A DNA stretch of 42,100 nucleotides from Sneathiella sp. (GTDB lineage: Bacteria > Pseudomonadota > Alphaproteobacteria > Sneathiellales > Sneathiellaceae): contig JAEPMY010000021.1 in the NCBI GenBank assembly GCA_017643685.1, positions 1-42,100 on the forward strand, given 5' to 3'. A program made the translations under genes and the position numbers. Each line of letters opens with the position of its first letter. Within the stretch, counting starts at the first letter, position 1. The notes beneath the pieces were generated by a model. It worked only from the letters and a program-made list of their open reading frames with translations. It did not search any database and was not told the origin of the DNA. This document shows, in pieces, positions 4,845 through 17,470 of the stretch.

Positions 4845-7601
4845 TCAGTCCCCAGCAAGCGCCGAACTGCCCCGGGCCTCTACAGGTAATGTAAAGACAA
4901 ACCGGGCACCGCCAGCAGACATGTTCTCTGCCCAGATCCGCCCACCGAAGAAGGTCACAATCTGGCGGCAAATGGCAAGGCCAAGCCCTGACCCTTGAGG
5001 TTTACTGCCGCCAATTGCCGCGCTTTGATGAAACCGTTCAAAAATTTTCTCTTTCAGCGGCGCGGGTACACCCAAACCATTATCCTCAACTGTTATAATC
5101 AGCTCATCCCCCTCATCCCGCACCTTGAGCCAGATTTTACCGTTATAAGGATCACAAAATTTAATAGCGTTCGAAACCAGGTTGATAATCACTTGAATAA
5201 GCTGATCCCGATCTGCCTGAACCGTTGGCAAAAACCGCGGAATATCCAGGTAAAAATCAATATTCTTCTCACGCACCAAGCCAATAAGCGCCTGAACACC
5301 GTCTTCTACCGCCGCATTCACATTAACGTCTGACAAACTCCAATCCATTCGGCCGGCTTCCATCTTCGCCAAGTCCAGCAACTGATCGATAAGCCTTGTC
5401 AAACGGTCACTCTCAGTTACAATCACATTTAAAAACTGCTGGCGTTCTTGCTGAGAAACATCCGGATTATCCTGTAATATCTCCCCAAAGGCGCGAAGGC
5501 TGGTGAGCGGCGTCCGAAGTTCATGACTGACCATTGATAAGAAGTCATCCTTCAAGCTATCCAGTTCTTTTAATCGATTATTCGCCATTTGCAGCTGTTC
5601 TGTCGCGGCTTGCAGCTGAGCTGATTTCTGCTCCAACGTATGGCTATACTCGATGACTTGACTGGTTTCGTCCAGAATACGATACACCTCATCGAGACTT
5701 ACAATCTCACCTTTGACAATTGATCCAATGAGAACCCGCGCCGTCGCGGACCCTATGGCACCGGCAAGCAACCGCTCAGCATATTCCAAAAGAGAACTGT
5801 CGACGCTTTGCCCCTTTCGCAACGTTACATTATTGTCGGTTGCAAACTCCTCAAAAGCCTGTTCAACCCGCCGAACACCAACAAAGCGACCAACAAGCTG
5901 CTGCAACTCTCCCACGGTAACGCTACCGCGCCAATAACCACTATCGGTATTACCCTCTGTTAAGCGGAAAACATCAACGAACAGTTTAGCCTGAATACGT
6001 TCAATTGCAGTTGGTTGGGTCAAGAGAGATATCACCCAATATCCACCGATGTTCGCAAGCATACTCCAGAACAATGCATGGGTAAGGCGATCAAACCCAT
6101 CCAGACCAAAGAGTGCGTAAGGCTTCAGCCACTCTAATCCAAACGGCCCTTCACTGATGAAGGCGTCCGGCAACCATCCCGATTGCGCAAGAGACGGGAG
6201 AAATAAAGTGTATAGCCAAACAACAAAGCCTGCCCCAAGACCACAGATCGCCCCGCGGAACGTAGCACCCTGCCAGAAAATACCGCCGATAATGGCCGGT
6301 GCAAATTGTGCGGCGGCGGCAAAAGACACCAGACCGATGGTGACAAGAGAATAGCTTTCGCTCGCAAATCTGTAATAGCCATACCCCAAAATCAAAATGA
6401 ACAGGATACTTGTCCGCCGAATGGCGATCAAAAGACCTGTCAAATCCTCAGCTTGCCGATTTTGGAACCAACGAGATCGAAGGAGTAATGGCATAACCAG
6501 ATCATTGCAGACCATAGTCGCCAAAGCGATCGAGGCGACAATAACCATAGAAGTTGCCGCTGAAAGCCCCCCAATAAAGGCAATCAAGGAGATAGTACCG
6601 TGATCGTAATAAAGGGGTAACGTCAGAACAAACATGTCCGCATCCACCTCGGTGCTCGAGAAAGCAAGCCTTCCCCCAAGAGCAATTGGCAGCACGAATA
6701 AATTAATCACCAAAAGATATGCAGGAAAAAGCCAGGTTGCTTTTCGCATGTAGCTCTCTTCCGCATTTTCGACTGCGGTAATGTAGAATTGGCGCGGCAG
6801 GCAAATGATGGCCGCCATCGACAAGAGCGTCATAGTAATCCAGGAGCTATAGCCTGTACCGTTACTAACGGTGAATAGCTCTCTTAGCTGTGGATCTACC
6901 GAAGCTCGCTGGAACAGGTCTGTAAAACCGCCAAAAATGCCATAAGTTGCGAAAATACCGACTGTTAAAAACGCCACCAGCTTGACGACAGATTCAAACG
7001 CAATCGCGGCAACCAGTCCTTCATGATGTTCACTTGCATCAATATGCCGTGTCCCGAACAGCGCAGCAAACACCGCCAGCGTGATCGCAACAATCAGCGT
7101 TGTATCCATAAAAAATATAGGCTCCACCGGGATTTCGGGAACCCGCCCACCACCCGGTGACGTAATCAAAATTCGAAAGCTTGTCGCAATAGATTTAAGC
7201 TGAAGCGAAATGTAGGGCATGGTGCCGATCACAGCGATGATCGTCACAAGTCCGCCAATAGAAGCCCGTTTACCATAGCGGGATGAAACAAAGTCCGCGA
7301 TCGACGTAATACGATTTTGCTTACAAATCCGGATAATCTTAATCCAGATAAATGGCCAAAGCACAAATACCAACGTTGGCCCCAGATAAATGGGCAAGAA
7401 ATCCAGTCCCGTTGTCGCGGCGCGTCCTACACTCCCATAAAACGTCCAAGACGTACAATAAACCGCAATGGACAAGGTGTAGATATAAGGGTTGCGGGAT
7501 AGAACCCGGCGGACACCTGCGCGGCTATCCACATAATGCGCAATAGCAAAGAGGAGCCCAAGATACAGAAAGGAGACGGTAATAACGACGCTACTATTCA
7601 T
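4845..7601 (-). CDS. SSS-transporter-fused sensor histidine kinase (CrbS/CbrA-like)
   Basis: A 918-residue fusion of a sodium:solute symporter and a histidine kinase. Residues 1-525 carry about 13 membrane segments, including TSWTFYGSVGRAA, ITSIADFVSSRYGKR and LPRQFYITAVEN, which are typical of SSS-kinase fusions. Residues 548-630 fit a STAC-type linker, followed by a coiled coil (650-685). HisKA has His693 in SMVSHELRTPLTSL. The ATPase has N807/N811, DNGLGVP (840) and GSGLGLA (870). No PAS and no receiver domain are seen. In Vibrio and Pseudomonas such kinases (CrbS, CbrA) control acetyl-CoA synthetase or carbon catabolism (established). Here it is the last gene of an operon with a receiver protein and a small membrane protein, and acs lies directly upstream, so control of acetate use is a good inference. 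Confidence 0.93.
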   Translation of the reverse strand: MNSSVVITVSFLYLGLLFAIAHYVDSRAGVRRVLSRNPYIYTLSIAVYCTSWTFYGSVGRAATTGLDFLPIYLGPTLVFVLWPFIWIKIIRICKQNRITSIADFVSSRYGKRASIGGLVTIIAVIGTMPYISLQLKSIATSFRILITSPGGGRVPEIPVEPIFFMDTTLIVAITLAVFAALFGTRHIDASEHHEGLVAAIAFESVVKLVAFLTVGIFATYGIFGGFTDLFQRASVDPQLRELFTVSNGTGYSSWITMTLLSMAAIICLPRQFYITAVENAEESYMRKATWLFPAYLLVINLFVLPIALGGRLAFSSTEVDADMFVLTLPLYYDHGTISLIAFIGGLSAATSMVIVASIALATMVCNDLVMPLLLRSRWFQNRQAEDLTGLLIAIRRTSILFILILGYGYYRFASESYSLVTIGLVSFAAAAQFAPAIIGGIFWQGATFRGAICGLGAGFVVWLYTLFLPSLAQSGWLPDAFISEGPFGLEWLKPYALFGLDGFDRLTHALFWSMLANIGGYWVISLLTQPTAIERIQAKLFVDVFRLTEGNTDSGYWRGSVTVGELQQLVGRFVGVRRVEQAFEEFATDNNVTLRKGQSVDSSLLEYAERLLAGAIGSATARVLIGSIVKGEIVSLDEVYRILDETSQVIEYSHTLEQKSAQLQAATEQLQMANNRLKELDSLKDDFLSMVSHELRTPLTSLRAFGEILQDNPDVSQQERQQFLNVIVTESDRLTRLIDQLLDLAKMEAGRMDWSLSDVNVNAAVEDGVQALIGLVREKNIDFYLDIPRFLPTVQADRDQLIQVIINLVSNAIKFCDPYNGKIWLKVRDEGDELIITVEDNGLGVPAPLKEKIFERFHQSAAIGGSKPQGSGLGLAICRQIVTFFGGRIWAENMSAGGARFVFTLPVEARGSSALAGD

Positions 7602-7856: not shown

Positions 7857-8243
7857 TTAACCTCCAGCCTTTTCAGGCAAGCCTGTCAGCTTCTTCACCA
7901 AATCCCCCAATGTTCTCGTCGAAAATGGTTTGGTCATGAATTCATCAGCGCCAAGGGCTATCGCTTTATCCCGGTCGGCCTCACGGCTTTTCGCAGACAA
8001 CATAATGATTTTTAAACGCTGGCAGGAAGGGTTGTTGCGAATAATTTCGCAAACCTGAAACCCATCTCTTTTCGGCAGCATGATATCCAACAAAACGATA
8101 TCAGGAACAAATTCATCAATGGCTTTCAAGGCCTGCTCCCCATCGGATGCAACCCTGACTGTAAATCCAAGTTGCCGCATAATAAATTGCAGCGATAAAA
8201 CTATATTAGGCTCGTCCTCAACGACGAGTGCAGTATACGACAT
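7857..8243 (-). CDS. Stand-alone receiver-domain response regulator
   Basis: A 128-residue CheY-like receiver with no output domain. Acidic residues lie in VVEDEPN (10-12), the phosphorylated Asp is Asp53 in VLLDIMLP, the switch residue is in IIMLSAKS, and the conserved lysine is in FMTKPFS. It is the first gene of the operon receiver/small membrane protein/SSS kinase, so it is the probable partner of that kinase. In Vibrio the CrbS kinase partner CrbR carries a DNA-binding domain (established); here none is present. It must pass the signal by protein contact or phosphotransfer. The start has a GGGAGGGG element about ten bases upstream. Confidence 0.92.
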   Translation of the reverse strand: MSYTALVVEDEPNIVLSLQFIMRQLGFTVRVASDGEQALKAIDEFVPDIVLLDIMLPKRDGFQVCEIIRNNPSCQRLKIIMLSAKSREADRDKAIALGADEFMTKPFSTRTLGDLVKKLTGLPEKAGG

Positions 8244-8429: not shown

Positions 8430-10370
8430 TTAGCGGTTCATTCGATTATCGATCAACTCATCAACAACCGCAGGTTCCGCAAGCGTTGAAGTATCTCCAA
8501 GGCTGCCGTAATCATTTTCAGCAATTTTACGAAGGATACGACGCATAATTTTCCCGGACCGTGTTTTCGGCAGGCCCGGTGCCCATTGGATCAAATCTGG
8601 CGATGCAATTGGACCGATTTCGTGGCGAACCCACTTCACCAGCTCTTTCCGAAGCTCATCAGTTGGCTCCACATCCGCCGCCAAAGTCACATAAGCGTAT
8701 ATCCCCTGACCTTTAATATCATGTGGATACCCAACAACTGCGGCCTCAGATACAGTCTCATGGGCAACAAGTGCACTTTCCACTTCAGCAGTACCCATGC
8801 GGTGACCAGATACGTTAATCACGTCATCAACACGCCCTGTGATCCAGTAATAGCCATCTGCATCCCGGCGGGCGCCATCACCAGAGAAGTACTTCCCTGG
8901 GAAATTAGAGAAATAGGTCTGGATAAAGCGCTCATGATCCCCATAGACACTGCGCATCTGACCAGGCCAGCTATCTTTAATACAAAGGACGCCCTCGCAT
9001 TCACCTTCCAGGACTTTTCCGTCATTATCGACCATCACGGGCTCGATACCAAAGAATGGTCGTGTCGCGGATCCCGGTTTCAAATCAGTTGCCCCTGGAA
9101 GCGGCGTAATCAAAATGCCCCCGGTTTCTGTTTGCCACCATGTATCAACAATCTGGCAGCGGCCTTCTCCTACCACATCGTGATACCAGCGCCACGCTTC
9201 CGGATTAATCGGCTCGCCAACAGATCCAAGCAAACGAATAGATTTGCGGGATGCTGCTTTCACTGGATCATTACCAGCCTGCATCAATGCGCGGATCGCA
9301 GTTGGCGCTGTATAGAAGATGTTGACCTGATGCTTATCACACACATCCCAGAAACGGGACATATTCGGGTAATTTGGCACTCCTTCAAACATTAGGGTTG
9401 TCGCCCCGTTCGCAAGCGGACCATAAAGAATATAGCTATGGCCAGTTACCCAGCCCACATCGGCCGTACACCAGTAGACATCGCCATCATGATAATCGAA
9501 CACATACTGGTGCGTCATAGAGGCATATACAATGTAGCCACCGCTCGTATGCAAGACACCTTTGGGCTGCCCAGTAGAACCAGAGGTGTAGAGGATAAAT
9601 AGCGGATCTTCCGCGTTCATTTCCTCCGGCGGGCAATCCTCAGAAGCACTCGCCATTTCTTCGTGATACCAGACATCACGGCCTTCAACCCAATTTACTT
9701 TATTGCCTGTATGCTGAACGACAATATTGACAACTTTCTGACCACAGTGATCTAGGGCCTCGTCCGTGTTGGCTTTCAACGGTACAATTCGGCCACCACG
9801 AATGCCTTCATCCGCGGTAATCACACAATTGCTGTCACAATCAACAATACGCCCAGCCAATGCTTCTGGGGAAAAGCCGCCGAATACAACAGAATGCACC
9901 GCCCCAATACGGGCACAGGCAAGCATAGCAACCGCAGCTTCAACAATCATCGGCATGTAGATGGTGACACGATCACCTTTTTTAATGCCATTATTTTTCA
10001 GTACATTTGAAAATTTACAGACTTCGCGATGCAATTCGCGATAAGTCAGCTTTTTATCCTGATCAGGCTCATCGCCTTCCCAAATGATCGCGGTCTGATC
10101 ACCCTTGGTTTCTAAATGGCGATCAAGGCAGTTCGCGCTTACGTTCAAGGTCCCGTCATAATACCAACGGATATGCAGATCGTCCTGATTGTAGGAAACA
10201 TCTTTCACCTTGGTGAAGGGTTTCATCCAATCGATCCGTTTCCCATGTTCCGCCCAGAAGCCCTCTGGGTCCTTGATGGAAGCCTCATACATTTCTTGAT
10301 ATTTGGCATTATCCACCCATGCGGATTTCGCAAGCGCCTCCGGTACCGGATAGATTTCACTGTCAGCCAT
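8430..10370 (-). CDS. acs: Acetyl-CoA synthetase
   Basis: About 646 residues, the full length of AMP-forming acetate:CoA ligase, which turns acetate, ATP and CoA into acetyl-CoA in the cytoplasm. The P-loop-like motif is [12 protein letters not shown], the adenylate site is [11 protein letters not shown], the hinge region is [17 protein letters not shown], and the C-terminal [11 protein letters not shown] contains the catalytic lysine that is acetylated to switch Acs off in many bacteria (established). Two ATGs are possible, 10376 and 10370; AAGGGA lies three bases from the first and nine from the second, so the second is preferred. It stands between the liv-type operon and the receiver/SSS-kinase operon, on the same strand as both, with its own 150-base upstream region holding a large palindrome. 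Confidence 0.96.
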
Positions 10371-10488
10371 TTCCATAATTCCCTTACATCGCGTCAGCTT
10401 ATATTCGTCGGAGATTTTATCACTCTCCCTGTTGCCGACATTCGACCCAATTCACATCTCTTTGTCAATTGCCAGTTAAAGAATAATT

Positions 10489-10535: not shown

Positions 10536-11249
10536 TTAGATCGCGAGATATTCGTGGCGAAGTTCCTGATCTTCCAGAACTTCTTTAGCTGTTCCTCTGA
10601 AAGCAATTTTACCCATATCCAAAATCAGCGCTTTATCTGCAAGCTGCAGTGCGGCCACCGCATTTTGCTCAACGATAACAGTTGTGATGCCAAGCTTCTT
10701 AACTTCCATCAGAATGCGCTCGATTTCTTCAACAATAACTGGAGCAAGCCCCTCATATGGCTCGTCCAAAAACAGGATCTTCAAATCCCGCGCCAAAGCT
10801 CGTGCAACAGCCAGCATTTGCTGCTCTCCGCCTGACATCGTAATCGCTTCCTGATTACGCCGCTCCCCAAGGCGGGGGAAATGGTCATAAATTTTCTCAA
10901 TAGGCCAGCCTCGTGGCTCTGCGACCTGAGACAAAATCAGATTTTCCTCCACAGTCAGACCACCAATAATCCGGCGATCCTCTGGCACAAGCTGTATACC
11001 AGCCTGCGCCGCCTCGTGAGATTTCATATCGTGGACAGCTTGTCCCTGCAGATAAATTTCACCTTTGGTCAATAAAGGCTCATCCACACGGGCGAGCGCC
11101 CGCAACGTGGATGTCTTACCAGCGCCATTTCGACCGAGAAGAGCGACAATCTCCCCCTCTTCCACATCAAAGGAAACACCCTGAACGATATATGACTCAC
11201 CATAGTAAGCGTGAATATCCCGAACGCTGAAAAATGCTGTATCGGCCAT
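10536..11249 (-). CDS. Branched-chain-type ABC transporter ATPase (LivF-like)
   Basis: A 237-residue ABC ATPase of the LivF group, one of two ATPases powering import through the LivH/LivM-like permeases. Walker A is GRNGAGKTST, the signature is MSGGEQQMLAVARAL, Walker B is ILFLDEPYEGLAP, and the switch histidine region is replaced by VIVEQN as in LivF proteins. Its start overlaps the stop of the LivG-like gene by one base (TAATG). It is the last gene of the operon; the palindrome 10489-10517 follows it. The imported substrate is probably not fixed by this subunit; neighbours acs and scfR suggest a carboxylate. Confidence 0.93.
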   Translation of the reverse strand: MADTAFFSVRDIHAYYGESYIVQGVSFDVEEGEIVALLGRNGAGKTSTLRALARVDEPLLTKGEIYLQGQAVHDMKSHEAAQAGIQLVPEDRRIIGGLTVEENLILSQVAEPRGWPIEKIYDHFPRLGERRNQEAITMSGGEQQMLAVARALARDLKILFLDEPYEGLAPVIVEEIERILMEVKKLGITTVIVEQNAVAALQLADKALILDMGKIAFRGTAKEVLEDQELRHEYLAI

Positions 11250-12010
11250 TAGTGCGCCCCTCCTAGATATGCTTCCTTAACACGCTGATCTTCGCGGACT
11301 TCTTCTGGTTTACCACCCGCAATAATAGCACCGCGTGCCAAAACACTGACCTTATCAGCAAGACTAAAAACAACATGCATGTCATGCTCAATAATCACTT
11401 TTGTCATGCCCCGACTTTTGATCTTTTTCAAAAGATCGATAGTCCGGTTGGTATCATGCCGCGACATGCCCGCAGTTGGTTCATCAAGAAGCAGCAAACG
11501 GGGCCGTAAAATCAGGCACATTCCCAGTTCTAACCGGCGTTTGTCTCCACGTGAAAGACTACCTGCCTCCTGCATCATCATTTCCTGAAGGCCAACATCC
11601 TCCAGAATATGCTCCGCTTCATCACGAATTTCGTTCTGTTTTGACAGCATGTTATGAGCATTAAAGGCAAAAGAGCCGTCCCGTTTGGAAAAAGCAGGCA
11701 ACATGACATTTTCAAGCAGAGACATTTCAGGAAAAATCTCAGGTGTCTGAAAAACACGAGCCACACCGATCTGCGCTATTTCGTGCGGCGCGCGGCCCGT
11801 GAGCTCCTGACCATCGAAAGTCACCTTACCTGCATCTGGCTTAAGCCGCCCGATACAAACGTTCAACAAAGTGGATTTACCTGCTCCATTCGGGCCGATA
11901 ATGGCGTGGGTTGTTCCCTCCTCCACATGTAAATTCACATCTGAAAGAGCCGCTAAGCCCCCGAAGTTTTTCTGGATATTGTCCAGGTGAAGAACCAAGT
12001 CACTCATCAT
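11249..12010 (-). CDS. Branched-chain-type ABC transporter ATPase (LivG-like)
   Basis: A 253-residue ABC ATPase of the LivG group. Walker A is GPNGAGKSTLLN, Walker B is RLLLLDEPTAGMSRHD, and the switch histidine is in VIIEHDMHVV. The signature motif is unusual: SLSRGDKRRLELGM instead of LSGGQ or the usual LivG LSYGxQR. This points to a distinct subfamily of the liv transporters rather than a classical leucine/isoleucine/valine system. It starts 10 bases after the LivM-like stop and overlaps the LivF-like gene by one base. Confidence 0.92.
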   Translation of the reverse strand: MMSDLVLHLDNIQKNFGGLAALSDVNLHVEEGTTHAIIGPNGAGKSTLLNVCIGRLKPDAGKVTFDGQELTGRAPHEIAQIGVARVFQTPEIFPEMSLLENVMLPAFSKRDGSFAFNAHNMLSKQNEIRDEAEHILEDVGLQEMMMQEAGSLSRGDKRRLELGMCLILRPRLLLLDEPTAGMSRHDTNRTIDLLKKIKSRGMTKVIIEHDMHVVFSLADKVSVLARGAIIAGGKPEEVREDQRVKEAYLGGAH

Positions 12011-12020
12011 CTATACTCCC

Positions 12021-13175
12021 TTACTCACCTGGTTGATCCTGAGGGGATGCTGTCCCGTTCATATTCTCTTGATCTTTTCGTCTGAATAACCCGGCCAGCC
12101 GGCTCATTCCCTCGACGATACCGCCAGGTAGGAAGATCACGATCACGACAAATAGCAACCCGAGTGTTAAATGCCAGCCACTCCCGACAAACAGACCCAC
12201 GATCGGCACCACCACTTCAACAGCAGCATCCGGTAAGAACGAGAATATCTCTGTTAATGTTTGGTTGTTGAATGCAGAGAAAATGTTTTCGAAATACTTG
12301 ATTAGTCCAGCGCCTAACATTGGCCCTGCGAGCGTTCCAACACCACCAAGGATCGTCATCAGAACCACTTCACCGGAGGCAGTCCATTGCATCCGTTCAG
12401 CCCCAGCCAGTGGGTCTGTCACCGCAAGAAGCGAACCTGCAAGTCCTGCATACATGCCTGAGATCACAAATGCAGTCAGCATATATGGTCGTGTATTCAG
12501 CCCCGTATACATCATCCGGTTCTGGTTAGATTTGATACCGCGCAGCATCAATCCGAACGGAGATCGGAAAATCCTCATAGAGATGTAATAGCAAAGGATC
12601 AGCATCACTGCGCAGAAATAGAAACCTTCAAACCCGCTCATTTTCAAACCAAAAAGATTGGTAGATGGAAGACCAGCACCTGCCTCGACAAACATGCTAT
12701 CGATGATGCGTGGATCTTGCTGTGAGAGCTGCAACCCTGTTTCACCATTCGTAATTGGCGTCAGAACTGAATAGGCAAGATTATAAGACATCTGCGCAAA
12801 AGCGAGGGTCAGAATTGAAAAGTAAATCCCGGTTCGGCGCAGTGACAGGAACCCAATGATAAAGGCAAGCAAACCTGCGAATAAAACACCAAAGATAATG
12901 GCCGGGATTGCATTCATGGTGAACAGTTTGAAAGACCAAACCGCAGCATAGGAACCCACCCCCAAAAAGGCGGCGTGCCCGAAAGAAAGATAGCCCGTAA
13001 GCCCGAAAAGAATGTTAAATCCAATGGCGAAGATACCGTAAATCGCAAATTTCTGCAGCAGATCCGGATAAGCTCCGCCAAGCGGGATCATCCAAATTGG
13101 CATCAATAGGATGATCGCGGCAAAAATCAGAAAACGGTTTGTGTCGTTGAGTTTAGCCAAAGTCATATCAGTCAT
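12021..13175 (-). CDS. Branched-chain-type ABC transporter permease (LivM-like)
   Basis: A 384-residue inner-membrane permease with about ten hydrophobic segments. The N-terminal half contains the LivM hallmarks [18 protein letters not shown] and [22 protein letters not shown]; later ones are [17 protein letters not shown] and [13 protein letters not shown]. The C-terminus is a charged cytoplasmic tail ([13 protein letters not shown]). Its first 8 bases overlap the end of the LivH-like gene, showing tight coupling. It pairs with LivH to form the channel. Confidence 0.94.
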
Positions 13176-14184
13176 CCATCACACCAGCTCGGCCCATAAG
13201 ACCACGCGGCAATACAAGTAGAATAATCACGGCCACCAGGTAGATAATGATCTGGTCGATACCAGGCAGAATGGCTTTCACCTCGGTCATGGAAGCAAAG
13301 GACTGAACAATCCCAAGCAGGAAGCCCGCAAGCACAGCCCCGCCAAGAGAGCCCATCCCGCCAACAACAACCACAACGAAGGACAGAACAAGAAAGTCCA
13401 TACCCATGTGATAATCCGGCGGCAAAATCGGTGTATACATGACGCCCGCCAAGCCAGCGACAACGGTGGCCATGGCGAACACAATGGTAAACCGGCGTTC
13501 AATGTTAATTCCCAGCAATCCGACCGTTTCCCGATCTCGCATACCGGCGCGGACCACCATTCCGTATGTCGTAAATTGCAAGAAGGAGAAAACCGCAAAG
13601 ATAATCAATCCAGAGAATAGCAGGTAAACAAGCCGCCACCATGGATAGACAACATTCTCACCCATTCCAAACCACGCCCCGACATTCGCGCTGCCTGCCA
13701 AGATATCGGGAGCTGTTTGAGGGATCGGGTTAGCACCAAACACAGCCTTAATGACTTCCTGCAATACAATTGCGAGACCAAAAGTCACCAGAATTTGCTC
13801 AGCATGTGGTCGCTTATAGAAGTGCTTGATCAGCCCTCGTTCCATCACATACCCGATTAATATCATCACCGGTATAGCCATCAGGATGGAAAGAGGAACT
13901 GCATAGTCCAACAGGATAGGGCCTGCATCCGGGAACCAGATCTCTAGATAAGGTTGCTCCTTATAGGCCTTGAAGAGGGTTACGCTTTTGTCTTCCACTT
14001 TTGTGGACAACATCAACAGCTTGTTGAAAGTCACCGCGCAAAAAGCGCCCATCATAAACAGGGCGCCATGCGCAAAATTCACGATACCAAGTGTCCCAAA
14101 AACAAGAGTTAAGCCAAGCGCAATCAGCGCATAGGCAGCTCCCTTGTCCAGTCCATTCAATATCTGCAGAAAGATCGCGTCCAT
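13168..14184 (-). CDS. Branched-chain-type ABC transporter permease (LivH-like)
   Basis: A 338-residue inner-membrane permease. The start [21 protein letters not shown] and [16 protein letters not shown] are typical of LivH, as are [23 protein letters not shown] and [17 protein letters not shown]. It has a loop of about 45 residues ([20 protein letters not shown] onward) between early helices that is longer than in classical LivH. It is separated from the binding-protein gene by 125 bases that include a terminator-like stem-loop, so the permease and ATPase genes are probably expressed below the level of the binding protein. Confidence 0.94.
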
Positions 14185-14255
14185 ATTACTCTACCTTGCA
14201 GGACGGGCGAGCCATTAAAGGCGCAGCCCAGATTATCTGATGATCAAATTTCAGG

Positions 14256-14296
14256 AAAAAAGACGGGCGGGAACTCCGCAGCGTTCACCGCCCGCC
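14256..14296 (-). terminator. Intrinsic terminator/attenuator between binding protein and permease genes
   Basis: On the minus strand GGCGGGCGG pairs with CCGCCCGTC (one G-U pair), a one-base bulge is followed by GAAC/GTTC, the loop has eight bases, and six T residues follow at once (14261-14256). It begins 14 bases after the binding-protein stop. Partial termination here would leave binding-protein mRNA in excess over permease mRNA. Confidence 0.8.
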
Positions 14297-14309
14297 AAAT
14301 AAACGACTG

Positions 14310-15656
14310 CTAGACTTTGTAAGGGCCGAGTTCCCCACCAAAGATTTTCCAGTCGTACTCCACCTGTGCCCGAGGGGTCTGCTCAACCACTTTCAAAAGG
14401 TCAAACTGACTTGTTGGGTTTTCATTTCCGCGCACCACCAGAACGTCTTTAAAGCACTGATGATCTTCCGCACGATAGAGGGTTGGGCCATTGCCCATAC
14501 CGTCAAACTCAAACCCTTCCAGGGACTTAATGACTTCGGGCGGATAGAATGTACCTGCCATTTCACAGGCATTTGCATAAAGCAGTGTCTGTACATAGCA
14601 GGTGTGGGCAGCCATAGATGGCGGCGCACCATATTCCGCACCGAATGATTTAACAAAGGCTTGCGATCCTTCATCCTGCAACGACCAGTTCCAGTTGGTT
14701 GTTCCAAGGATACCTTTAATGGCATCGCCCGCACCCTGCGCCATCAGACGAGAGAAGAGCGGCACAACAATCTCAAAGTTTTTGCCGTTTGCCTGTTTTT
14801 CACGAAGACCAAACTGAACTGCTTGGCTCAGGGAGTTGATCATGTCCTTACCATAGTGGTTGAGGATCAACACATCCGCGCCAGAATTCAGAACGGGCGT
14901 AATATACTGAGAGAAGTCACCCGCACCCACAGGGGTCCGAACAGTTGCGACAGTGTCCCAACCCAGCTCTTCAGTAGTGTTTTTGATGGATTCTTCTTGT
15001 GTCCAACCCCATGTGTAGTCGGCTGTCAGGTGATATGCACGGCGCTCTTTACCATACTCTTTTTCAAGTACTGGACCCAGCGCACGACCAGACATATAAG
15101 CATTGAAGAAGTGACGGAAACCATAACGGCGCTTGTCTTTACCTGTCGTGTCATTGGAGTGTGTGAGGCCGGCCATAAAGACAACCCCCTCTTCCTGACA
15201 GAGAGACTGCACAGCAACAGCCACACCAGAGGAAGAACCGCCGGAGATCATCAACACCTGCTCTTTTTCGATCAAGCGTTTCGCAGAAGCGCGGGCTGCA
15301 TCGGATTTTGTCTGCGTATCACCGGTCGCATAGGTGACTTTTTTGCCCAAAACACCATTACCTTTAAGTGCAGATGGTTTGAATGTATTCAACATACCGC
15401 CATCCCCCTCACCGTTAAGGTGCTTCACCGCCAGTTTAAAGGCCCGAAGTTCGTCTTTACCCTCTTCTGAGTAAGGTCCGGTTTGCGGAACGTTAAAACC
15501 CAATTTAATCTCAGACGCATTACCTGGATTGTTCCGGAACTCTTCCGCCCAAGCGTTTTTCATAAAAATGGATGGGGTCGCCGCCACCAAACCAGCACCG
15601 GCTCCTGCCTTCAGCAAGCCTCGGCGTGAAAAGTCGAACTTGATATCCTTAGTCAT
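14310..15656 (-). CDS. Periplasmic ligand-binding protein of a liv-type ABC transporter, Tat signal
   Basis: A 448-residue type-1 periplasmic binding protein (Peripla_BP_6 type). The N-terminus holds a twin-arginine signal, SRRGLLKAGAGAG (Arg 11-12) followed by a hydrophobic stretch and AWAEE as likely cleavage region. Family features include KLGFNVPQTGPYSEEGK, SDAARASAKRLIEKEQV and GGSSSGVAVAVQSLCQ. The start at 15656 is chosen over a longer frame (15719) because GGAGGAAACTT precedes it and the Tat motif then falls at the usual place. It is longer than LivJ/LivK (about 370), matching amide/urea or carboxylate-type relatives. Being next to ScfR and acs suggests a short-chain organic acid ligand, but this is inference. 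Confidence 0.92.
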   Translation of the reverse strand: MTKDIKFDFSRRGLLKAGAGAGLVAATPSIFMKNAWAEEFRNNPGNASEIKLGFNVPQTGPYSEEGKDELRAFKLAVKHLNGEGDGGMLNTFKPSALKGNGVLGKKVTYATGDTQTKSDAARASAKRLIEKEQVLMISGGSSSGVAVAVQSLCQEEGVVFMAGLTHSNDTTGKDKRRYGFRHFFNAYMSGRALGPVLEKEYGKERRAYHLTADYTWGWTQEESIKNTTEELGWDTVATVRTPVGAGDFSQYITPVLNSGADVLILNHYGKDMINSLSQAVQFGLREKQANGKNFEIVVPLFSRLMAQGAGDAIKGILGTTNWNWSLQDEGSQAFVKSFGAEYGAPPSMAAHTCYVQTLLYANACEMAGTFYPPEVIKSLEGFEFDGMGNGPTLYRAEDHQCFKDVLVVRGNENPTSQFDLLKVVEQTPRAQVEYDWKIFGGELGPYKV

Positions 15657-15740
15657 AAGTTTCCTCCAACTTGTTAGACCGCAGGCCATCGCCTCAATTA
15701 AAGAAGACACGGCCGACACACACTTCTTTTGTTTTAGGGT

Positions 15741-15850
15741 TGTAAAATTTTCACATTATCTTTTTCTTTACCATTTAATCCTTGCAAAACTGCGATTTTT
15801 TCTGTTAAATTTGAAAAATCTTAAGTGTAAATCTGTAAAATATTGTAAAA
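15741..15850. promoter_or_regulatory. Divergent liv-type/scfR control region with TGTAAA repeats
   Basis: The 197-base gap is A+T-rich. TGTAAA-type elements occur at 15741, 15826, 15834 and 15844; the first is half of a pseudo-palindrome TGTAAAATTTTCACA (15741-15755). The minus strand at 15791-15781 reads AGTTTTGCAAG, 8 of 11 matches to the RamB site. The three clustered TGTAAA elements end four bases before the scfR ATG, as expected for autorepression. No Shine-Dalgarno sequence precedes scfR. Confidence 0.45.
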
Positions 15851-15853
15851 AAT

Positions 15854-17470
15854 ATGGCTCGCACCCCCTACATGGGATCTCGCCTTCGGCGACTTCGCAA
15901 AGACAAACAGCTCTCGCAAACCGACCTTGCGAGCTTACTTGGCATTTCCACGAGCTATCTCAATTTAATTGAGCATGACAGGCGGGACTTAACTGTCCCT
16001 CTCCTTCTAAAAATCAGTCAAACCCTTCAAGTTGACCCAATGGCGTTCGCTGGCGGTCAGGATGGTCAATTACTGGCCGAAACCACCGAAGCCTTTAATG
16101 ATCCCATGTTTGCAGCAGATGCATACCCAAACGATGCGCTTGCAAATTTCACTTCAGATTACCCTGAACTGGCTCGCCTTATGGTGAAACTGTATCAGGC
16201 TTACAAAATGACAAGTGGTGATCTGCAAATGCTACGGGAGCGCCTCTCTCAAGACAGCCTGCTTGCAGATTCGTCTTTTCGAATGCGGACGCTCGTCACC
16301 TCTGTCCTTTCCTTAACAGAGATCATGCATGACAACAGTGACTTGGATGAGGAAGACAGGCAGCGCTTTTTGGATATCGTTCTAAAAGACAGCACGTCCC
16401 TTGCTGACACTGTCGATGAAATGATGGGCTTTGTAGGCGGCGAACATCTATCCGGTAAAGAACTCTCCCCATCAGCTATGGAAGCAGTGACCGACTTCAT
16501 TCAAGGACACAACAACTATTTCGATGAGATTGAACAGGCAGCAGATGCATTGCGCCCTGATCTTGGGAGCGGTAGCCCCAATTTAATGGAGCTGACACAG
16601 TACTTACAACAGCAGCTGAAAGTTGACATCAATTATGCCGCAGAAGAACAGCATGATATTGAAATCACTCTATTTGATGAGAAAAGACGCCTTTTAACCC
16701 TTTCAAAGGCCTTACCACCCTCGACCGTTAAATTTCACATGGCTCTGCTGATCGGGCAGCTCACCTCTGACACCTTGTTTGATCAGATCATTAACAGAGA
16801 CGCCTCTCTCTCTACCGATGTCGCCAGAGCCAAAGCAAAAGACGCACTCGCCAATTATTTTGCTGGAGCATGCCTTCTGCCCTATGAAGTGTTTTTAGAG
16901 GCTGCTGAAAGGGTTCGGTATGATATCGAATTATTGCAACAACAATTTGGCGCAAGTTATGAACAAATCTGCCATCGCCTTACCACATTGCAGCGCCCCG
17001 AAAGAAGTGGAATTCCCTTTCATCTCATTCGAACAGATGTGGCCGGGAATATCTCCAAACGGTTTAGCGCTTCAGGTTTGCGCATTCCAAGATATGGCAC
17101 CGCGTGTCCCCGCTGGATCGTACATGCTGCCCTCTTAACCCCCGGATCTATCTGCACACAGATAGCTGAACTTCCCGATGGTTCGCAATTTTTTTCCATC
17201 GCGCGAACCGTCGCAAAACCAAGTCTCGGCTATAACAAACCCAAACGACACTATGCGATCAGCATTGGCTGCGCCTTACCCCACGCGCATCGGTTGGTTT
17301 ACGCAGATAATATGAACCTGACCAACCCCAAAAGTGTTATGCCTGTGGGTATAACTTGCCGCCTATGCGATCGGAATAATTGCGGTCACCGCGCAGCGCC
17401 ACCGCCCAATCAGCCCGCGAAAAAGAATAGCACGGCCCGGAATATTTCACCGGGCATCGGCGATTGGTGA
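15854..17470 (+). CDS. ScfR-family (short-chain fatty acyl) XRE transcriptional regulator
   Basis: A 538-residue regulator. Residues 8-62 form an XRE helix-turn-helix (GSRLRRLRKDKQLSQTDLAS). Residues 246-380 resemble the IrrE/ImmA-like domain of ScfR proteins, with the peptidase HExxH degenerate (KFHMALLIGQL). Residues 385-515 form the C-terminal ScfR domain ending with TCRLCDRNNCGHRAAPP (Cys 502, 505, 510, possibly metal-binding). Family members such as RamB, MccR and PrpQ control acetate, propionate and glyoxylate/methylcitrate genes and sense acyl-CoA (established). Residues 140-192 align without gaps to kinase dimerisation helices (see findings). It is divergent from the liv-type operon, and the stop abuts the convergent gene. 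Around 70 residues longer than actinobacterial relatives. Confidence 0.92.
   Translation: MARTPYMGSRLRRLRKDKQLSQTDLASLLGISTSYLNLIEHDRRDLTVPLLLKISQTLQVDPMAFAGGQDGQLLAETTEAFNDPMFAADAYPNDALANFTSDYPELARLMVKLYQAYKMTSGDLQMLRERLSQDSLLADSSFRMRTLVTSVLSLTEIMHDNSDLDEEDRQRFLDIVLKDSTSLADTVDEMMGFVGGEHLSGKELSPSAMEAVTDFIQGHNNYFDEIEQAADALRPDLGSGSPNLMELTQYLQQQLKVDINYAAEEQHDIEITLFDEKRRLLTLSKALPPSTVKFHMALLIGQLTSDTLFDQIINRDASLSTDVARAKAKDALANYFAGACLLPYEVFLEAAERVRYDIELLQQQFGASYEQICHRLTTLQRPERSGIPFHLIRTDVAGNISKRFSASGLRIPRYGTACPRWIVHAALLTPGSICTQIAELPDGSQFFSIARTVAKPSLGYNKPKRHYAISIGCALPHAHRLVYADNMNLTNPKSVMPVGITCRLCDRNNCGHRAAPPPNQPAKKNSTARNISPGIGDW

Follow-up and report, generated by a model that had tools for sequence, protein, structure and literature searches.

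What is a segment that resembles the dimerization (DHp) domain of a histidine kinase doing inside a transcription regulator? The question is raised by a 42,100-nt stretch of Sneathiella sp. DNA (assembly GCA_017643685.1, contig JAEPMY010000021.1; hereafter the window), in which an initial annotation, made from the sequence alone, had matched part of an ScfR regulator (positions 15854–17470, plus strand, 538 aa) to the DHp domain of an SSS histidine kinase (4845–7601, minus strand, 918 aa). Both genes were as that annotation gave them. We find good support for identifying residues ~134–194 of the regulator as a HisKA-type DHp hairpin, and for a three-gene module in which such ScfRs are combined with a stand-alone receiver and an SSS kinase. 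The ScfR is probably the DNA-binding output of this kinase–receiver system, read through a captured DHp domain.

A HisKA-type DHp hairpin within an ScfR regulator

The window protein has the three domains that define the ScfR family according to Pfam: an XRE-type helix-turn-helix (residues 7–63, positions 15872–16042; HTH_3, E 4e-11), an IrrE/Peptidase_M78-like domain (residues 253–377, 16610–16984; E 2.3e-15) and the ScfRs C-terminal acyl-CoA regulator domain (residues 378–532, 16985–17449; E 5.7e-58). The best PDB match of its structural model was to M. tuberculosis PrpR structures. The DHp segment (positions 16253–16435), delimited by profiles and predicted structure, lies between the helix-turn-helix and the IrrE-like domain. 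Pfam detected no HATPase domain in the ScfR, and the protein has neither the CA/ATPase part nor the HE-R-TP residues of a histidine kinase. By alignment, the phospho-acceptor position of the DHp is occupied by Phe142 (codon 16277–16279) in place of the His found in most relatives.

Realignment of the segment with the kinase DHp reproduced exactly the 17 identities in 48 positions that had been counted over kinase residues S692 to D739, as well as the pairing of Phe142 with the kinase acceptor His693. The alignment was gapless over the core, as proposed (BLASTP E 5e-10), although the quoted register was two residues off: ScfR residue 140 faces kinase residue 691 rather than 689. The Smith-Waterman score of the pair was 110, compared with 60 for the best of 2000 shuffles, and a HisKA profile built from kinases only gave the segment 40.2 bits, compared with 14.3 for the best of 2000 shuffles. 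Chance likeness between amphipathic helices was considered as the source of the match and was ruled out by these shuffles. With the Pfam HisKA profile the window segment scored 20.3 bits (E 5.6e-4), which is under the curated cut-off of 26.9 bits, whereas orthologues at four other loci exceeded it (38.7, 33.7, 33.0 and 31.9 bits). The profile searches therefore place the segment above background in the HisKA family, as the initial annotation had anticipated.

Structure prediction led to the same identification. The AlphaFold2 model of the ScfR alone contained antiparallel helices at residues 135–160 and 166–194, and the isolated segment was also predicted to be a two-helix hairpin. PDB neighbors of the hairpin found by Foldseek were mostly histidine-kinase DHps, with HK853 at the top and DivL among them. 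The Foldseek E-values were modest (best 5.9e-3), as expected for such a small hairpin.

Distribution of the insertion and of the acceptor residue

A survey of 387 alphaproteobacterial genomes revealed two types of ScfR. Full-length matches to the window protein occurred in 37 genomes, and a larger group matched the C-terminal part only. The short ScfRs align with the window protein at residues ~1–130 and ~206–538, and the segment between is missing; by this alignment the DHp segment is a clean insertion between the helix-turn-helix and the IrrE-like part. None of the 20 ordinary ScfRs examined had a DHp, or an adjoining SSS kinase or receiver gene. In a phylum-wide sample, all long ScfRs among the matches listed were alphaproteobacterial. 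Thus, the initial reading of a DHp-like segment in ScfR stands and the segment is present in many alphaproteobacterial ScfRs, but it is an insertion related to the SSS-kinase DHp and without counterpart in ordinary ScfRs, rather than a general ScfR feature.

The segment had also been called a pseudo-DHp for want of the acceptor His. Its DHp character holds, whereas the loss of His is lineage-specific: the acceptor position of 41 long ScfRs is His in 31, Phe in seven (all from the genus of the window), Gln in two and Tyr in one, and it is His in 14 of 14 further ScfR variants. In all three His-less lineages the ScfR gene lacks the receiver and kinase genes as immediate neighbors.

Lower-scoring shortened variants (L231–L244) were found via the kinase and were left out of the co-occurrence test described below. 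Several of ~430–485 aa (L231–L235, L239, L240 and L243) retain the helix-turn-helix and the DHp with a shortened or degenerate IrrE-like part; one of these is split over two frames. A short open reading frame near another ScfR/receiver/kinase cassette (L135, 5498–6127, minus strand; 210 codons from stop to stop) had a HisKA match above the cut-off (28.9 bits) and no further Pfam match.

Linkage to a stand-alone receiver and an SSS kinase

The window encodes a receiver (7857–8243, minus strand) for which Response_reg was the sole Pfam match above the cut-off (E 6.4e-28). The active-site Asp and Lys are invariant in 67 homologues, and the cassette receivers lack an output domain. Outside the genus of the window, the three genes usually lie on one strand in the order ScfR, receiver and SSS kinase. 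An SSS kinase was encoded in the DNA stretch examined around 35 of 41 long ScfRs and around none of 20 short ones (Fisher 4e-11; the loci are not independent). At the genome level, a non-hybrid SSS kinase was present in 37 of 37 genomes with a long ScfR versus 26 of 350 other genomes, and in outlying long-ScfR genomes the receiver–kinase pair was present elsewhere in the genome. These associations support the three-gene module well, and of the contacts that the initial annotation had offered for the segment they favor the receiver. The cassette also occurs in Neorhizobium sp. SOG26 and in Paracoccus ferrooxidans, where its genes carry no more than the labels 'XRE family transcriptional regulator', 'response regulator' and 'sodium:solute symporter'.

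We examined ten SSS kinases of the long, CrbS/RpuS-like and apparently hybrid kind, and none had a partner of this sort nearby. By length, alphaproteobacterial SSS kinases form two classes, ~890–1040 aa without a receiver domain and ~1130–1420 aa and apparently hybrid, which differ in their gene neighbors. An ScfR of Cereibacter azotoformans (H38) is adjoined by glyoxylate-cycle genes and by no two-component genes in the stretch examined. Where non-hybrid SSS kinases and receivers were paired without an ScfR (L251 and L253–L260), a protein with PAS and DEDDh-exonuclease domains was encoded between the two genes in nine of ten cases (for example L253, 9855–12017, minus strand). Six of nine such proteins contained a weak DHp-like match, most with Glu replacing His as read from the alignment.

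Probable origin of the ScfR DHp and a putative docking signature

The window kinase, whose DHp (His693; Pfam HisKA, 5352–5552, minus strand) is the closest in the genome to that of the ScfR, ends after its CA domain and is non-hybrid. Its assignment as an SSS (SLC5-like) kinase rests on TIGR03648 (E 4.4e-6) and on homology to PDB 10ed_A, an entry named histidine kinase; Pfam SSF did not match the N-terminus. The 30 best-scoring HisKA matches from each of two genomes were ranked with a profile of 34 ScfR DHps, none of them from the genus of the window; the SSS kinase came first in both by a wide margin (E 1.1e-17 and 2.5e-14; next best 4.7e-6). In a DHp tree, 36 ScfR DHps grouped in a single clade (0.97) that was nested in the SSS-kinase clade (0.61) and separate from every other kinase included. 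The simplest account of this pattern is a single transfer of the DHp from the neighboring SSS-kinase gene into an ancestral alphaproteobacterial ScfR.

We also compared the DHps of 32 ScfR/SSS-kinase pairs, numbering positions from the acceptor His (H). Columns that distinguish the SSS kinases from other kinases (H+7 Thr, +10 Arg, +11 Ser, +15 Ile, +30 Phe, +33 Ile, +37 Glu and +38 Ser) are common to the ScfR in most pairs, and Thr, Ser or Asn occupies H+4 in all 32. Columns associated with kinase activity were seldom retained by the ScfR (E+1 in 4/32, R+3 in 8/32 and P+5 in 0/32). In our own alignment, positions +8, +11, +15 and +33 fall on HK853 residues that were changed to rewire receiver specificity, according to the title of PDB 4jau. 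A domain that docks a receiver but no longer acts as a kinase would be expected to show this pattern of columns. Covariation between receiver and DHp was considered and set aside, since the first receiver helix looks highly conserved and the pairs are few.

How the DHp of ScfR may be used

The proposal that ScfR is the probable output of the SSS-kinase/receiver system includes several elements that we infer, namely physical docking of the receiver on ScfR, the consequences of docking for DNA binding, the identity of the ligand and the operator. The SSS kinase would phosphorylate the output-less receiver, which would then dock on the ScfR hairpin in the same manner as on the kinase, and docking would alter the DNA binding or the oligomeric state of ScfR. 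The C-terminal module would add an acyl-CoA signal, so that acetate-type two-component sensing would be joined to acyl-CoA sensing in ScfR. That the window protein reads acyl-CoA is suggested by its family membership; RamB, an ScfR, binds CoA esters (PMC10370305). Since Phe142 occupies the acceptor position, read-out in the genus of the window would be by binding and not by phosphotransfer, which is impossible there and possible in most relatives.

Several observations weigh against this proposal. An SSS kinase was missing from the stretch examined at six of the 41 long-ScfR loci, four of which also lacked a nearby receiver, although each of these genomes encodes the kinase at another site. 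In the genus of the window the ScfR gene is ~7.5 kb from the receiver gene and the His is lost, so coupling between the two proteins may be weakened there. Support for the clade uniting ScfR and SSS-kinase DHps was moderate (0.61 on 74 columns), and part of the shared columns may derive from common descent rather than from selection for docking.

The retained His would also suit a different use, in which the receiver hands its phosphoryl group to the ScfR DHp in a Spo0B/ChpT-like phosphorelay that was lost in the genus of the window. The frequency of His (31 of 41 long ScfRs, 14 of 14 further variants), the separation of ScfR from the receiver and kinase genes in each of the three His-less lineages, and the small polar residue at H+4 are consistent with such a relay. 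However, the acidic residue that follows the His is mostly lost, Phe142 makes transfer impossible in the window, and His is also found in a few unlinked ScfRs, so the association is not strict; we consider such a relay unlikely. It is rather less probable still that the segment serves only to dimerize ScfR. DHp hairpins do dimerize and the fold is predicted to be one, but dimerization without receiver contact leaves unexplained both the linkage to the receiver and SSS kinase and the shared docking columns. Moreover, short ScfRs lack the segment, and the RamB of Paracoccus, which we considered as an ScfR without assigning it to the short or long type, forms tetramers (PMC10370305). The H+4 residue is also the one used by HisKA phosphatases, which, together with the resemblance of the two DHps, would suit a role of the ScfR DHp as phosphatase of, or sink for, the phosphorylated receiver, or its direct pairing with the kinase DHp. 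However, the ExxT phosphatase motif has lost its Glu/Asp, the kinase is a membrane protein, and the output-less receiver is left unexplained, making these roles highly improbable.

A candidate local target

We return to the proposal that ScfR acts as the DNA-binding output. Its gene is divergent from a minus-strand run consisting of five genes for a branched-chain/urea-type ABC transporter (10536–15656), the acetyl-CoA synthetase gene acs (8430–10376; TIGR02188, 1045 bits), the receiver and the kinase. This run is the likely local target of ScfR. The intervening region contains an inverted repeat, TGTAAAATTTTCACA (15741–15755), that is a candidate operator; 20 aligned sequences from the genus conserve it, and in the 3.4 Mb genome no other site matches the genus consensus with at most one mismatch. 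Three TGTAAA direct repeats directly before the ScfR start (15826–15849, plus strand) are a candidate second site. ScfR may bind at both. Boxes of the type already known for ScfR (TTTGCAAA) were considered and rejected, as they were not enriched in the window (38 matches with at most one mismatch versus 38.6 expected). For the ABC binding protein, the ATG at 15656 is a more probable start than the GTG at 15719; its ribosome-binding site and start are conserved in part of the genus.

Relation to known systems and implications

Alphaproteobacteria commonly have stand-alone receivers, many of them without an assigned output. Spo0B and ChpT are histidine phosphotransferases made from DHp folds. 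As proposed for the ScfR DHp, they partner a receiver and have no kinase activity, but they are separate relay proteins and not transcription factors. DivL, a Caulobacter pseudo-histidine kinase, reads DivK~P (PMC4211667), indicating that binding read-out without the His is possible. As proposed for the window ScfR, a DHp without kinase function of its own reads a stand-alone receiver, and in both proteins an aromatic residue replaces the acceptor His; however, DivL retains PAS and CA domains and is not a transcription factor, whereas the ScfR DHp sits within the probable DNA-binding output. CrbS/CrbR and RpuS/RpuR combine hybrid SSS/STAC kinases with LuxR-type regulators (PMC9100948). The window kinase is of the same SSS type and its gene runs with acs, the classical CrbS/R target, but it is non-hybrid and its receiver has no output domain, which sets the system apart from CrbS/R.

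The window ScfR shares its XRE helix-turn-helix, IrrE-like and ScfRs C-terminal domains with RamB, PccR and PrpR/MccR. Pden_1785 of Paracoccus denitrificans is linked to the present cassette through other Paracoccus records that carry it, and not through its own sequence; the available part of PMC10370305 reports neither a DHp domain in Pden_1785 nor a function for one. One paper mentions that a gene of the ScfR network adjoins a two-component system and, in the text consulted, takes this no further. In the part of the literature searched we found no description of the ScfR DHp domain or of the three-gene module, and both are likely to be novel. A broader suggestion, which we consider rather unlikely, is that in the His-bearing relatives a histidine within a DNA-binding protein is the last acceptor of a phosphorelay and that CA-less DHps are portable receiver-reading modules, in ScfRs and, more weakly, in the PAS–DHp-like–exonuclease proteins of the sister cassettes.

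If the proposed role of ScfR is correct, the output of one widespread class of stand-alone receivers would be a separate transcription factor with a kinase-related DHp. One regulator would merge the signals of a nutrient sensor in the membrane and an acyl-CoA sensor inside the cell, and docking specificity would be reusable by moving a domain.
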